Below are positions 3,739 to 23,058 of a DNA stretch of 48,018 bases, one piece after another. The stretch's first letter is position 1, and every line of letters starts with the position of its first letter. The notes below the pieces were generated by a model. It saw only the letters and a program-made list of their open reading frames with translations. It was not told the origin of the DNA and did not search any database. A program made the translations under genes and the position numbers. This DNA comes from Chthonomonadaceae bacterium. Lineage in GTDB: Bacteria > Armatimonadota > Chthonomonadetes > Chthonomonadales > Chthonomonadaceae. The stretch lies in contig JANXSG010000253.1 in assembly GCA_025352825.1 (NCBI GenBank), forward strand, positions 1-48,018, given 5' to 3'.

Positions 3739-4368
3739 TCAACATGTAAATATCGTTTGCGCTTCATCAGGAAGATCGGTGCAGAGATATAGTTCCGATT
3801 CTGCAAACAATCCGCTTGTCAGAAGCAGATCCCACAGCGTGATATGCGAGCGTCTATGCAGCTCAGGGGAGACCAGGCACACTCTTTTTCCAGAAGCTAA
3901 ATGTGCCCTTACCGTCTCTTCGGTATACCACTCTCTTTCGAAGCAGTCTATCCACACTCCTGCTGCATGTTCGTATAGGGCTGGCGCTGGCTCATATTCA
4001 CTTTGTCGTGTAAAGTACGGCTCTTTGCCATCGTAGTAAGAGAGTGTATCTGGAATCGACATGTCGAATACGAAATAGCAGGAGGGATCCATATCACTCA
4101 GCTGTTGTGAAAGCAGAGTATAGATACCGTCAGATTTGATGTTGAGCGCTAATGGACATCCATTTCCGATGGATCTATAAATCGACAGAAATTCATCAAA
4201 TGGCAGGAAGTGATCCATGGGAGGGTCGTGAGAGATAACGAGTTCGCCCAGACGATCACGAATATCTGTCTCCACTCCCATTCCATTTTCGAAAGCACGA
4301 TGAAATGCGGCGCGAGTGTTTTCTTCACCTCGATTGTTCCACCAGCCACGATGACATAGAATTCTCAT
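3739..4368 (-). CDS. Glycerophosphodiester phosphodiesterase family protein
   Basis: A cytoplasmic-looking protein of 209 residues with no signal peptide. It has the GDPD signature: HRG at residues 6-8, E15/N17 followed by AAF, metal-ligand E33-x-D35, and HD at 47-48. The family hydrolyses glycerophosphodiesters to glycerol-3-phosphate and an alcohol with a TIM barrel and divalent metal. At 209 residues it is somewhat shorter than typical 240-300-residue members, so the exact substrate is uncertain. There is no good Shine-Dalgarno before the ATG at 4368. A 13-codon reading frame (4365-4406) ends in an ATGA overlap with this start. The gene is transcribed away from the phosphoesterase gene at 4541. 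Confidence 0.82.
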   Translation of the reverse strand: MRILCHRGWWNNRGEENTRAAFHRAFENGMGVETDIRDRLGELVISHDPPMDHFLPFDEFLSIYRSIGNGCPLALNIKSDGIYTLLSQQLSDMDPSCYFVFDMSIPDTLSYYDGKEPYFTRQSEYEPAPALYEHAAGVWIDCFEREWYTEETVRAHLASGKRVCLVSPELHRRSHITLWDLLLTSGLFAESELYLCTDLPDEAQTIFTC

Positions 4369-17914: not shown

Positions 17915-18075
17915 AGATAGTTTTCCTAACCCCCCGACCCTTCCCTGATTCCCTCGTTCCTCGGAGGGAAGGGGAGAATTTGAAGTTACCGTTTCTGACT
18001 CCCCCTTCCTTAGCGCAAACATCTTTACCGTTTGTGCGAACAAGGAAGGGGGTCGGAGGGTTAGGAAAACTATCT
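17915..18075. repeat. Cloverleaf-like composite palindrome between convergent genes
   Basis: The outer arms 17915-17940 and 18050-18075 match as inverted repeats over 26 bases with a single mismatch. Inside are two further hairpins: CCCTTCCCT with AGGGAAGGG (about 17938-17976), and a longer one in which CCCCCTTCCTT and CGCAAAC pair with GTTTGTGCG and AAGGAAGGGGG (about 18000-18053). The left arm begins immediately after the stop codon of the sulfatase-fold gene and the right arm overlaps the last codons of the ABC permease. It probably ends both convergent transcripts and belongs to the same family as 10861-11040. Confidence 0.8.
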
Positions 18076-19350
18076 ACCGCCGAGCCCGGTGAGGGTGACG
18101 CCTTCGATAAAATACCGTTGTGTGAAGAAGAACAACACGACTACGGGCAGCATCACCATGGTGGTTGCTGCCATTAACATGCCTGGTTCAGCGCCGTGGG
18201 CAGAATTGAAAAGCTGCAGCATGTAGGAGAGGGGCATCTTCTCCGGGGAAGATATGTAGATCAAGGGGTTCATGAAGTCTTTCCAGGCTCCGATGAATGT
18301 CATGATCGTTACCGCCGCAAGAGCCGGTTTCACCATAGGAAGCATAACTCGCCAGTAGGTTCCGAAGTAGGTGCAACCATCGATTTTGGCAGCGTCCTCC
18401 AGTTCCTGTGGTATACCCATGAAAAACTGCCGCAGCAGAAAGACATTGAACGCCGCGGCAAAAAAGGAGGGTACCCAGAGTGGGTAGAGGGTATCCACCC
18501 AGTGCAGACTGCGGAATATGAGAAACCGAGGCATCATGGTGACAGCGTCCGGGAGCATCATAGTTGCGAGTACCAGCCCAAACAGCCAGTCTCTTCCGGG
18601 CCATCGCAGTCGTGAAAATCCGTACGCGACCAGACTTGACGAGAGCACCGTGCCTATGACCGACATCAGCGCGATGACAAGCGTATTCTGCAGGTTGATC
18701 AGGCCGTAGTTACTATCTTTTGGCAGGAACTTGAGAGCATCGGGATAGTTTTTCCATACTGGCGCAAAGTGTCGGATTTCTGTAAGTTCCGCTCTAGATA
18801 CCTGTTGAAGCGCGTTAGGATCGTCAAGAGATCTGGCGAGCATAGTTCCATCCGGGAAAGATTTTAGCACTGCAGCTTTCACTCTGGTTCCACGATAGTT
18901 CATCCAGACCAGTCCAGCTTCCTTACCATCCACATGGATCGTATCCTGCTGAGTTGGAACCCATTCAGGAGGAAAGTGCGACATCTGCTTGTCTTCCTTA
19001 AGGGAAGTGACCACCAACCAGACGAATGGAATAAGGAAAAGCGCTGATCCTGTGAGCAGTAGGAGATGAAGCAGCGATGGTTTAGACTCTCGAATGGGGA
19101 TGATTGCATCAATCGGAGCTAACGACTTTGCCAATCCCAGAGTGAGTACTCCAAGAATCGCCTCAAGACAAATGATTCGGAATGTGCTTGCTAAAAACGG
19201 CGAAAACACTATAAGAATAATGGGCAGCGCTAAAAGAGCGCCCGCCAGAGACTTCTGTTTCAGACGCAGGGCACGAGTCGTATGCGCCACCCAGAGTGTC
19301 AGCACAGTATAACCAATTAGTATTAGTATAAGCGAGATAATCGCGTTCAT
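18070..19350 (-). CDS. Carbohydrate ABC transporter permease (MalG-type) with long periplasmic insertion
   Basis: 426 residues, well above the roughly 280 of typical MalG-type permeases. The extra length comes from two or three additional N-terminal membrane segments (about residues 1-75) and an insertion of about 90 residues (about 118-210) after the first permease helix. That helix is FLIPFVWLVVTSLKEDKQMS. The core permease (about 215-426) has the EAA loop ELEDAAKIDGCTYFGTYWRV, which contacts the ATPase. The last residues GVTLTGLGGR are typical of sugar permeases. It follows the SBP-permease fusion on the same strand and would be its partner subunit. The substrate is unknown. No ATPase gene is nearby, so a shared MsmX/UgpC-type ATPase encoded elsewhere is likely. 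Confidence 0.88.
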   Translation of the reverse strand: MNAIISLILILIGYTVLTLWVAHTTRALRLKQKSLAGALLALPIILIVFSPFLASTFRIICLEAILGVLTLGLAKSLAPIDAIIPIRESKPSLLHLLLLTGSALFLIPFVWLVVTSLKEDKQMSHFPPEWVPTQQDTIHVDGKEAGLVWMNYRGTRVKAAVLKSFPDGTMLARSLDDPNALQQVSRAELTEIRHFAPVWKNYPDALKFLPKDSNYGLINLQNTLVIALMSVIGTVLSSSLVAYGFSRLRWPGRDWLFGLVLATMMLPDAVTMMPRFLIFRSLHWVDTLYPLWVPSFFAAAFNVFLLRQFFMGIPQELEDAAKIDGCTYFGTYWRVMLPMVKPALAAVTIMTFIGAWKDFMNPLIYISSPEKMPLSYMLQLFNSAHGAEPGMLMAATTMVMLPVVVLFFFTQRYFIEGVTLTGLGGR

Positions 19351-19451: not shown

Positions 19452-21893
19452 CTATTTTCCATCCGTCTCATAGTGCACCCATCTTGGCGCGAGTTTGAGT
19501 TGGCCCAAAGTCAGTCCTAGAATGATAATAAACAGTATCCAGGCGAGCGCACTGGCATAGCCCATCTTGAAATACTGAAAGGCGTTATTGAACAGGTAGA
19601 CCACTGGAACAAGAAGGCTGTCATCAGGCCCTGTACTCTGGCCGCCTCCTGTGTTGCCTAGAATATAAGCTGTCTCAAACGTCTGTAAGGCACCGATGGT
19701 CCCCACAATCAGATTGAAGAAAATATAGGGTGAGAGCATCGGTAAAGTGATGTGCCTGAACTGCTGCGGGCCACTGGCGCCATCCAAGTTTGCAGCCTCA
19801 TAGAGAGTGGCAGACACAGACTGAAGACCTGCCAGCCATAGAATCATCCCGCCGCCCGCGCCCCATAGCCCAATCAGTATGAGTGAAGGTTTAGCCCAGC
19901 TAGGAACCGCAAGCCACCCGGGAGGAGGCAGGTGAAACCAGTTAGTCATGGTGCTCTGCCAGAAGGCGTTGATCAGGCCCCTGCTGGGATCAGCGTTCAG
20001 AATCCACGCCCAGAGAACTGTCGTCGCGACTACCGGCACAATGCTGGGCATATAAAAGGCGGTGCGGTAATACTGCAGGCCTTTCACTTTTGTGTTGAGA
20101 AGCATTGCCATAGACAAGCTAGTGACCATTCCCAGTGGGATACCAAACATCGCGAGGTAGAGGGCATTGCGAATACTTTTTAGTATAAACGATCTATCCA
20201 AGGTTGCCAGTGAGATGTAGTTGGATACTCCCGCCCAGCGGGCAGGATGCAGCACATCGTAGTCGCAAAAGGAGAGAATGAGCGATGCAATAATTGGGCC
20301 GAGTGTAAAAACAACAAAGCCAATTACCCACGGAAGCACGCTTGCGAACCCCGCCCATGCTTCTGCGCGTACCATCCGGCGTTCATTCTTCATCCAGAAT
20401 GCCAGCTTTATCGCAAGAACGGCAAACCCGATGACTACTAGAAGTGCGGTCACTCCAATTACCATCCCGGAGGGAAGCAGAGGGTGCGATTCTCTCTGAA
20501 ATACTTTATCCAGCTCGATCTGAACCTGCTGCTGCCCGTACGACAGAGCTGCTTTTGGTGACTTCGTATGGCGAATAGCGGCATCGACCGCGCGTGCGTG
20601 CTCATCCCATAGGCGCTGGCCTACAAATGTCACCGGTCGGAATTTGGTATAGGGCAGCAGGTCAAGCGTTATCTGTTTCGCGTCAAGGAATTTCGGTGGG
20701 AGAGTCGATTTGTAGGCGTCGAAAACAGCCTGAGTCGCTGGTATATTCGCTCGAAGACCGGGTACAAAAAGCCTACCTTTGCTAGCCACATAGGCAGCCT
20801 GTGCTTTAGCGCCTATAATCACGGCTTTGGGAGAGTTCATCCACTGCACGAACTCCCACGCCTCTTTAACATGCTGTGCGCCACGAGGAATAGCGAACGA
20901 GAATCCTCCCGACCAGGTTACCCACTGGGGATCGGATTTGAATCTTCCTTCACGGCGAAAACGTTCTGCAGGAATAGGGACAGCACAAACTCCGAAATCC
21001 ATCTCAGGATGGTATCTTGCTATTGATGAAATGAAACCATCACCATCCACCTTCATCGCAAGTTTGCCAGTCATAAACGGGTCTTGATCTTCAGTAGTGA
21101 ATCCCCCTGAAAACGCATTGATTCCATCCACACCCCCTAGTTGGTCGTACCATGATACCATGGTGGTGAGCGCCATCTCAGTGAAGGGATTGTCTAGAGT
21201 GCAATGACGCCCGTCCGGCGCCATGAACTCTCCATCCTGCTGCCATGACCAAAGATAGAGCCAGCCCTGACCATAAATCGGAATAAATCCTAGTCTGTCG
21301 TATCCACCTCCTGGGGTGCGTCTGGTCAGTTTTTTGGCATATTCTATCAGCTCGTCCCATGTCTGGGGAGGGTGGTTCGGATCAAGCCCCACTTCACGAA
21401 AGAGAGTTTTATTATAGTACAGCACACGATCATCAGTTTCGTATGGGATGGCGTATACGTTACTCTCATAATTAGCTTCTGCCCAGGTGGCAGGTACATA
21501 GTCCACTTTACGGATAGCATAGGGACTCTTACTGTTCAAGTCACGAGCCAATAGGTCATTCAATGATCGGAAAGCATCCCTGCTAGCCCAGTCGCCAATA
21601 GTAAATCGATCCTGCCGCACCAGATCGGGAGGAACTCCTCCAACGATTGCAGTCATCAGTTTTTGCGGATTCATCGCTCCCGCGCCCATCGACAAAACGG
21701 CGACGTGAATATTGGGATGCATGCGTTCAAATGCTGCTATCTTAGCATCTTGATCTTTGGTCTCTGTACCCGATTCGAGCCCCCATACAACAAGTCTGAT
21801 AGGAACATCAGACATGCAATCTTGCGGCACTATAAAAGCAAAAATTGAGAACACACAGAAAAGTAATGAAAAGAGGTTGAGTAACTTGGTCAT
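19452..21893 (-). CDS. Sugar-binding protein fused to ABC permease (SBP-MalF-type fusion)
   Basis: 813 residues. The N-terminal signal/anchor is followed by a family 1 extracellular solute-binding domain (about 30-460), with IRLVVWGLESG, a disordered-to-fold segment around PPDLVRQDRF, and FAIPRGAQHVKEAWEFVQWM. A membrane segment at about 475-500 leads to a MalF-like permease domain (about 515-813), with the EAA loop YEAANLDGASGPQQFRHITLP-type sequence near residue 700. Binding protein and channel are thus one tethered polypeptide, which would sit with the sugar-binding domain outside and the permease in the inner membrane. It has no Shine-Dalgarno of its own; its ATG overlaps the stop of a 28-codon ORF with a perfect ribosome site. 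It is co-directional with the second permease. Confidence 0.9.
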   Translation of the reverse strand: MTKLLNLFSLLFCVFSIFAFIVPQDCMSDVPIRLVVWGLESGTETKDQDAKIAAFERMHPNIHVAVLSMGAGAMNPQKLMTAIVGGVPPDLVRQDRFTIGDWASRDAFRSLNDLLARDLNSKSPYAIRKVDYVPATWAEANYESNVYAIPYETDDRVLYYNKTLFREVGLDPNHPPQTWDELIEYAKKLTRRTPGGGYDRLGFIPIYGQGWLYLWSWQQDGEFMAPDGRHCTLDNPFTEMALTTMVSWYDQLGGVDGINAFSGGFTTEDQDPFMTGKLAMKVDGDGFISSIARYHPEMDFGVCAVPIPAERFRREGRFKSDPQWVTWSGGFSFAIPRGAQHVKEAWEFVQWMNSPKAVIIGAKAQAAYVASKGRLFVPGLRANIPATQAVFDAYKSTLPPKFLDAKQITLDLLPYTKFRPVTFVGQRLWDEHARAVDAAIRHTKSPKAALSYGQQQVQIELDKVFQRESHPLLPSGMVIGVTALLVVIGFAVLAIKLAFWMKNERRMVRAEAWAGFASVLPWVIGFVVFTLGPIIASLILSFCDYDVLHPARWAGVSNYISLATLDRSFILKSIRNALYLAMFGIPLGMVTSLSMAMLLNTKVKGLQYYRTAFYMPSIVPVVATTVLWAWILNADPSRGLINAFWQSTMTNWFHLPPPGWLAVPSWAKPSLILIGLWGAGGGMILWLAGLQSVSATLYEAANLDGASGPQQFRHITLPMLSPYIFFNLIVGTIGALQTFETAYILGNTGGGQSTGPDDSLLVPVVYLFNNAFQYFKMGYASALAWILFIIILGLTLGQLKLAPRWVHYETDGK

Positions 21894-21976
21894 TTAATTC
21901 TGAAAATCCATTGAAAGCGGTGCAGTCGATAACTAATATCAACATAGTTATAATTGTGATTATTCTTGGTCGGCAT
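21890..21976 (-). CDS. 28-residue small ORF translationally coupled to the SBP-permease gene
   Basis: On the minus strand, a perfect AGGAGG (21985-21990) lies 8 bases before an ATG at 21976. The frame runs 28 codons and its TGA (21890-21892) overlaps the ATG of the SBP-permease gene in an ATGA arrangement. The larger gene has a TAA directly before its own ATG and no ribosome site, so this small frame is the likely entry point for ribosomes. The peptide is rich in Asn, Tyr, His and Arg (it begins MPTKNNHNYNYVDISY). It has no recognisable domain. It may be a leader or coupling peptide. An overlapping 73-codon frame (21808-22029) lacks a ribosome site and is less likely. Confidence 0.5.
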   Translation of the reverse strand: MPTKNNHNYNYVDISYRLHRFQWIFRIK

Positions 21977-22065
21977 TGGATATTCCTCCTGAAGTTTCCA
22001 AGCGCCAGTGTTAATTTCAAGCGTTTCATGTAGTTTAAATACTTGTCACGCCCTCACCCTCCCGT

Positions 22066-22101
22066 CTTCGGAAGCTTCGGGAGCTTCGGGAGCTTCGGGA
22101 G
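22066..22101. repeat. Four tandem 9-base repeats
   Basis: The unit CTTCGGGAG is repeated four times (the first copy is CTTCGGAAG), between C-rich sequence on the left and GGGGGACTGGGAG on the right. The flanks resemble the C/T-rich hairpin family, so this is probably an expanded hairpin member. The gap from 21977 to 22764 holds this tract, the two large repeats at 22204 and 22331, and the leader of the gene at 22765. Confidence 0.85.
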
Positions 22102-22203
22102 CGGGGGACTGGGAGCGTAGGCGTTCGGTTAAGGATTTTTGTAATTGTATCGACGGGTTAAAAGGGATGTGTAAGTAATCGAAAACCACCCATAATAAGA
22201 GGC

Positions 22204-22312
22204 GGGCACTGAAGTACCCGTCTGGAAGGCCTGCGGCCAACAGCCCTGCGGGCAGATTCGCGTCTGAAAGACGCCTGTATTTTATTGCCGGGAGTTTTCA
22301 ACTCTCGGAAAT
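22204..22312. repeat. Dispersed palindromic element, tandem copy 1
   Basis: 109 bases starting GGGCACTGAAGTACCCGTCT and ending CAACTCTCGGAAAT. Internal small palindromes include GCCCTGCGGGC, GCGTCTGAAAGACGC and CCGGGAGTT/AACTCTCGG. It differs from the next copy at only two positions. Related copies lie at 16317 and 30741. Confidence 0.9.
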
Positions 22313-22330
22313 AATCTCCTGCACATTGCC

Positions 22331-22439
22331 GGGCACTGAAGTACCCGTCTGGAAGGCCTGCGGCCAACAGCCCTGCGGGCAGATTCGCGTCTGAAAGACG
22401 CCTGTATTTTAATGCCGGGAGTTTTCAACTCCCGGAAAT
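22331..22439. repeat. Dispersed palindromic element, tandem copy 2
   Basis: 109 bases, 127 bases downstream of copy 1 and identical to it at 107 of 109 positions. The terminal hairpin is perfect here (CCGGGAGTT with AACTCCCGG). Near-identity implies a recent duplication or gene conversion. Confidence 0.9.
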
Positions 22440-22764: not shown

Positions 22765-23058
22765 ATGAAAAAGTATTCCGCTATTTTTGCATCCATCGCG
22801 ATCCTCAGCGGTGTGGCTGTGTTTGCAGCGCCACCTAAGAAGACTGCGAAAGCTGTAGATGTATGGACTTGCCCGATGACTGGCGAAGCCATCAAAGACC
22901 ACGCGACGGCAGCCAAGAAAACAGTCGTAGTTGCCGGCAAGACAGTCCATTTCTGCTGCGCGGGATGCCCGGAAAAATTCAGTGCTCTAAGCGCCAAAGA
23001 GCAGAAAGCCAAAGTGATAGCAGCCGCCAAAAAAGAGGCTCCTGCAAAGAAAAGCTGA
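22765..23058 (+). CDS. Small secreted YHS-like metal-binding protein
   Basis: 97 residues from ATG 22765, which has AAGGAG 9 bases upstream; longer frames starting at 22702 lack this. Residues 1-22 form a signal peptide (KK, hydrophobic core, VFAAPP). The mature part has WTCPMTGEAI and, about 25 residues later, HFCCAGCPEKF, the cysteine pattern of YHS/TRASH-like heavy-metal-binding domains. The C-terminus is Lys/Ala-rich. It is probably a periplasmic metal- or redox-sensing/binding protein; the metal is not predictable from sequence. A hairpin follows its stop codon. Confidence 0.8.
   Translation: MKKYSAIFASIAILSGVAVFAAPPKKTAKAVDVWTCPMTGEAIKDHATAAKKTVVVAGKTVHFCCAGCPEKFSALSAKEQKAKVIAAAKKEAPAKKS

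Follow-up and report, generated by a model that had tools for sequence, protein, structure and literature searches.

A 28-codon open reading frame with a strong Shine-Dalgarno sequence overlaps the start of a fused transporter gene in a Chthonomonadales genome: a putative coupled small upstream ORF

A transporter gene that lacks a Shine-Dalgarno (SD) sequence, and whose start codon overlaps the stop codon of a small open reading frame (ORF) that possesses one, raises the question of whether the small ORF supplies the gene with ribosomes or lies there by coincidence. We addressed this question in a 48,018-nucleotide stretch of DNA (the window) from an Armatimonadota MAG of the order Chthonomonadales (4.87 Mb, 298 contigs). 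The gene (21893..19452, minus strand) encodes an 813-amino-acid fusion of an ABC solute-binding protein and a permease (Pfam SBP_bac_1 and BPD_transp_1) with a hydrophobic signal or anchor sequence at its N terminus, and its product is a component of a sugar-type transporter. A second permease of 426 amino acids (19350..18070, minus strand; BPD_transp_1 by Pfam), whose start is likewise devoid of an SD sequence, probably belongs to the same transporter. At a cutoff of E <= 1e-250, 105 of 291 Armatimonadota genomes contain an orthologue of the 813-amino-acid protein, which is thus widespread across the phylum; the nearest named relatives for this gene are Chthonomonadales MAGs.

The anatomy of the locus was established by direct reading of the minus strand. 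The SD sequence AGGAGG (21990-21985) lies 8 nt 5' of the ATG of the small ORF (21976-21974), separated from it by the spacer AATATCCA. The small ORF (21976..21890) consists of 28 codons, MPTKNNHNYNYVDISYRLHRFQWIFRIK, followed by TGA (21892-21890). This stop codon and the transporter start codon (21893-21891) share the tetranucleotide ATGA (21893-21890), in which the A of the ATG is the last base of the small ORF's final AAA codon and the TG belongs to its TGA. Directly 5' of the transporter ATG, and in the same frame, there is a TAA (21896-21894), and the 813-amino-acid ORF can therefore not be extended upstream. A search for an SD sequence of at least 4 bases in the interval 4-11 nt upstream of the transporter start returned none. 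These readings agree with an earlier note on this DNA, which had described a 28-codon ORF with a perfect SD sequence, its ATGA overlap with the transporter gene, and a large gene preceded by TAA and devoid of a ribosome site. The small ORF thus shows two features of coupled small upstream ORFs, namely, a short frame whose stop overlaps the start of the next gene and an initiation signal of its own. Two other interpretations of the region were rejected. A programmed frameshift into the transporter frame would bring the shifted ribosome to the TAA at 21896-21894, where it would terminate before the ATG. A 73-codon ORF in the third minus-strand frame (22029..21808), which contains a hydrophobic stretch and overlaps both the small ORF and the transporter start, has no Pfam match and no SD sequence by eye and was considered a chance frame.

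To place these signals in context, start statistics were derived from a 596-kb sample of the genome. Of 364 sampled genes, 44 have an SD sequence of at least 6 bases close to their start, as compared to 1 of 364 mid-gene control positions, so that a well-spaced AGGAGG belongs to a genuine class of signals in this genome. At the same time, 145 of the 364 genes (about 40%) have no SD sequence of even 4 bases, and such sequences are also absent from most genes in the window; an SD-less transporter start is therefore ordinary here. Long frames frequently overlap through ATGA, which was the case in 18 of 137 close codirectional pairs.

We consider the small ORF to be a ribosome-delivering upstream ORF for the transporter gene with a probability of roughly 0.48, that is, slightly below even odds. 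The transcript would begin upstream of position 21990, and ribosomes would bind AGGAGG, translate the 28 codons, and terminate at the TGA (21892-21890). The post-termination ribosome would then step one base back and reinitiate on the overlapping transporter ATG, which has no SD sequence of its own. We infer the upstream transcript start, the translation of the small ORF, and the dependence of the downstream start on it; the coupling in particular is deduced from the observation that 13 of 14 tested ATGA pairs were strictly coupled (PMC6728339) and from the proposed delivery of ribosomes by short upstream ORFs (PMC12548453). The well-spaced AGGAGG together with the TGA/ATG overlap, the enrichment of SD sequences at gene starts, the frequency of ATGA pairs, and the SD-less, TAA-preceded gene all argue for ribosome delivery. 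Against it stand the near-chance frequency of the arrangement (1 in 436 genes versus 0.28 expected), the lack of a conserved peptide, DNA sequence, or architecture, and the failure to find a convincing promoter on the minus strand near the small ORF. The sole promoter-like match in the region on that strand, at 22173-22144, agrees in 9 of 12 bases and by itself constitutes no evidence. Moreover, SD-less starts are so frequent in this genome that the transporter may need no help in initiation.

Coincidence is nearly as likely as a function. In this case, an AGGAGG-ATG in the AT-rich 5' region would be open by chance up to the gene start, the transporter would be initiated independently without an SD sequence, and the small ORF would have no selected role. 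We assessed this by replacing the 200 nt upstream of each gene with an order-1 Markov sequence in 40 simulations and counting the full arrangement, defined as an SD sequence of at least 6 bases, an ATG small ORF of 8-60 codons, and a stop/start overlap. It was observed in 1 of 436 sampled genes as compared to a mean of 0.28 expected (maximum, 2), a ratio that has to be read in the light of the fact that the one case is the site at 21890-21976 itself, which was picked for carrying the feature. Relaxing the SD requirement to at least 5 bases resulted in 1 observed and 1.6 expected, and the 436 genes thus revealed no excess of SD sequence, small ORF, and overlap in combination. At 0.28 per 436 genes, at least one such arrangement per genome, and by this rate several, is predicted by chance. 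The codon usage of the small ORF points in the same direction, as its mean codon score (27 codons after the ATG) lay within the range of shuffled sequences, 17% of which scored as well; the absence of conservation (see below) and the frequency of SD-less starts likewise favor coincidence. On the other hand, a strong, well-spaced SD sequence is rare at random positions, as the mid-gene controls indicate, and this one sits directly upstream of the transporter start, where it would bind ribosomes if transcribed.

Conservation, which the earlier note had named as a check in relatives with the same fusion, was absent throughout a set of compared genomes that includes no close relative of this species. 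A search of 290 other Armatimonadota genomes returned no homologue of the peptide MPTKNNHNYNYVDISYRLHRFQWIFRIK, and a narrower search of 61 genomes likewise matched only this genome. The 166-bp leader DNA produced only short matches at chance level in 60 relatives, so that a conserved DNA element in the leader was rejected, and a longer upstream stretch had no match in 30 other genomes of the order. Orthologues with 71-75% identity are preceded by genes or sequences unrelated to the small-ORF leader and begin with a weak SD sequence, with one of their own (AAGGAG, L055/L056), or with none. Among 49 other orthologous loci, an ATG small ORF overlapping the transporter start occurred in none (0/49). 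Two of them have non-ATG overlapping frames, of 16 codons (TTG, L101) and 54 codons (GTG, L147), with SD sequences of 5-6 bases at a spacing of 11 nt, the edge of the allowed range; being non-ATG, marginally spaced, and unrelated in sequence to the small ORF, they were dismissed as chance frames. In L101 (the same locus as L030), the TTG frame (approximately 3866-3917) lies behind AAGGAG, and its stop overlaps the GTG/ATG start region. A coupled small ORF that is conserved, or commoner than chance, was therefore not found, given 0 of 49 orthologous loci and the frequency in the 436 genes. Ribosome delivery is still compatible with this outcome, because it requires no conserved peptide, and the peptide itself is probably functionless. 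Such an arrangement would probably be a recent, lineage-specific, sequence-independent 5' leader and not a conserved regulator.

A less probable explanation is that the small ORF represents the former n-region of the transporter's signal sequence or, if one base was lost in assembly, the present one. If the AAA run at 21895-21893 contained a fourth A, the two frames would become one (...SYRLHRFQWIFRIK-MTKLLNLFSLLFCVF...) with its start at AGGAGG, so that one homopolymer base suffices to generate a start with an ideal SD sequence. The small ORF ends in a basic tail and, on inspection, orthologues with 71-75% identity have n-regions in which several basic residues precede the hydrophobic stretch (e.g., MSWGRFKRIYNRT and LSKRFSIRRQPS), whereas the present transporter start offers only MTK. 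However, MTKLLNLFSLL... is already adequate as the beginning of a signal sequence, the small ORF is dissimilar to every orthologue N terminus, and a 31-residue n-region beginning with MPTKNNHNYNY would be unusual. In addition, ORFs of 100 amino acids or more account for a coding fraction of 0.78, which hints at no abundance of indel errors. We thus regard a split N terminus as unlikely.

The idea that translation of the Asn/Tyr-codon-rich small ORF senses a signal and gates translation of the transporter is highly improbable: its position and overlap would permit gating, its N-terminal half is rich in Asn and Tyr, and a weak possible hairpin (21971..22007, minus strand, by folding; 41 nt, -11.6 kcal/mol, z -1.9, equaled by 8 of 200 shuffles) holds the SD sequence in its loop and the ATG in its 3' arm, but this hairpin is not significant in a longer context, the leader fold shows no excess stability over shuffles (z 0.4), the small-ORF stop and the gene start leave no space for an attenuator, and neither peptide nor DNA is conserved. 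An Rfam search of the leader returned no family on the minus strand, and a riboswitch or other known RNA was rejected, as the sole match was a chance one on the opposite strand. The combination of a conserved peptide or codon run with alternative RNA structures, characteristic of leader peptides and attenuators, was thus not observed. The earlier note had suggested a leader or coupling peptide, possibly regulatory, and had itself named lack of conservation as evidence to the contrary; the reading as a conserved regulator consequently fails, whereas the architecture, together with the 18 ATGA overlaps in 137 pairs, fits coupling. It appears doubtful, at about half the likelihood we give to ribosome delivery as such, that the small ORF is a natural "bicistronic leader" of young age, which evolved in a single Chthonomonadales lineage and furnishes the SD-less transporter gene with a ribosome-binding site; if true, it would be an example of coupled small ORFs arising de novo.

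Several other features were noticed upstream of the small ORF. A tandem 9-nt repeat, CTTCGGGAG, is present in approximately four copies at 22066-22101, between the small ORF and two 98% identical copies (22203-22312 and 22330-22439) of a 110-nt element that is composed of successive short palindromes, such as GCGTCTGAAAGACGC and CCGGGAGTTTTCAACTCCCGG. Genome-wide, the element is matched at least 24 times, a lower bound for which only 21 of the 126 candidates from a first look were scored, and relatives contain half-matches only, covering its positions 1-49 in G028, G032, and G034 and positions 56-108 in G006, as if it were modular. Further upstream, 22765-23058 encodes a small secreted protein of approximately 97 amino acids with an HFCCAGCPEKF motif, which resembles YHS/heavy-metal-like domains by eye, and AAGGAG upstream; a Pfam search of this protein returned no match at 1e-3.

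If the small ORF is translated, Armatimonadota, a phylum for which we know of no translation start mapping, would provide one more example of a coupled short ORF that delivers ribosomes. Its relevance would lie mainly in correct start annotation and in how SD-less genes gain ribosome loading, with no new mechanism involved. In mycobacteria, "coupled" small ORFs with an RTGA overlap are overrepresented and visible in ribosome profiles (Shell et al. 2015, PMC4633059). The ORF described here resembles these unannotated frames, which comprise 5-50 codons and end in a TGA that overlaps the RTG start downstream. Those frames were, however, identified on leaderless transcripts with RNA-seq and ribosome profiling, and their placement is sometimes conserved between species, whereas the present case is predicted from the sequence, possesses a strong SD sequence, and is not conserved in its placement. 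The gene pairs analyzed for termination-reinitiation, of which 13 of 14 were strictly coupled (Huber et al. 2019, PMC6728339), share with it the four-base ATGA overlap and codirectional ORFs, but both partners were annotated genes, whereas the first ORF here has 28 codons and is of a kind that escapes annotation. In engineered bicistronic design cassettes (e.g., PMC5995908), a short leader cistron likewise precedes a coupled target gene, and the arrangement described here would be a putative natural counterpart. It would thus represent at most a further putative case of the already known class of coupled small ORFs.
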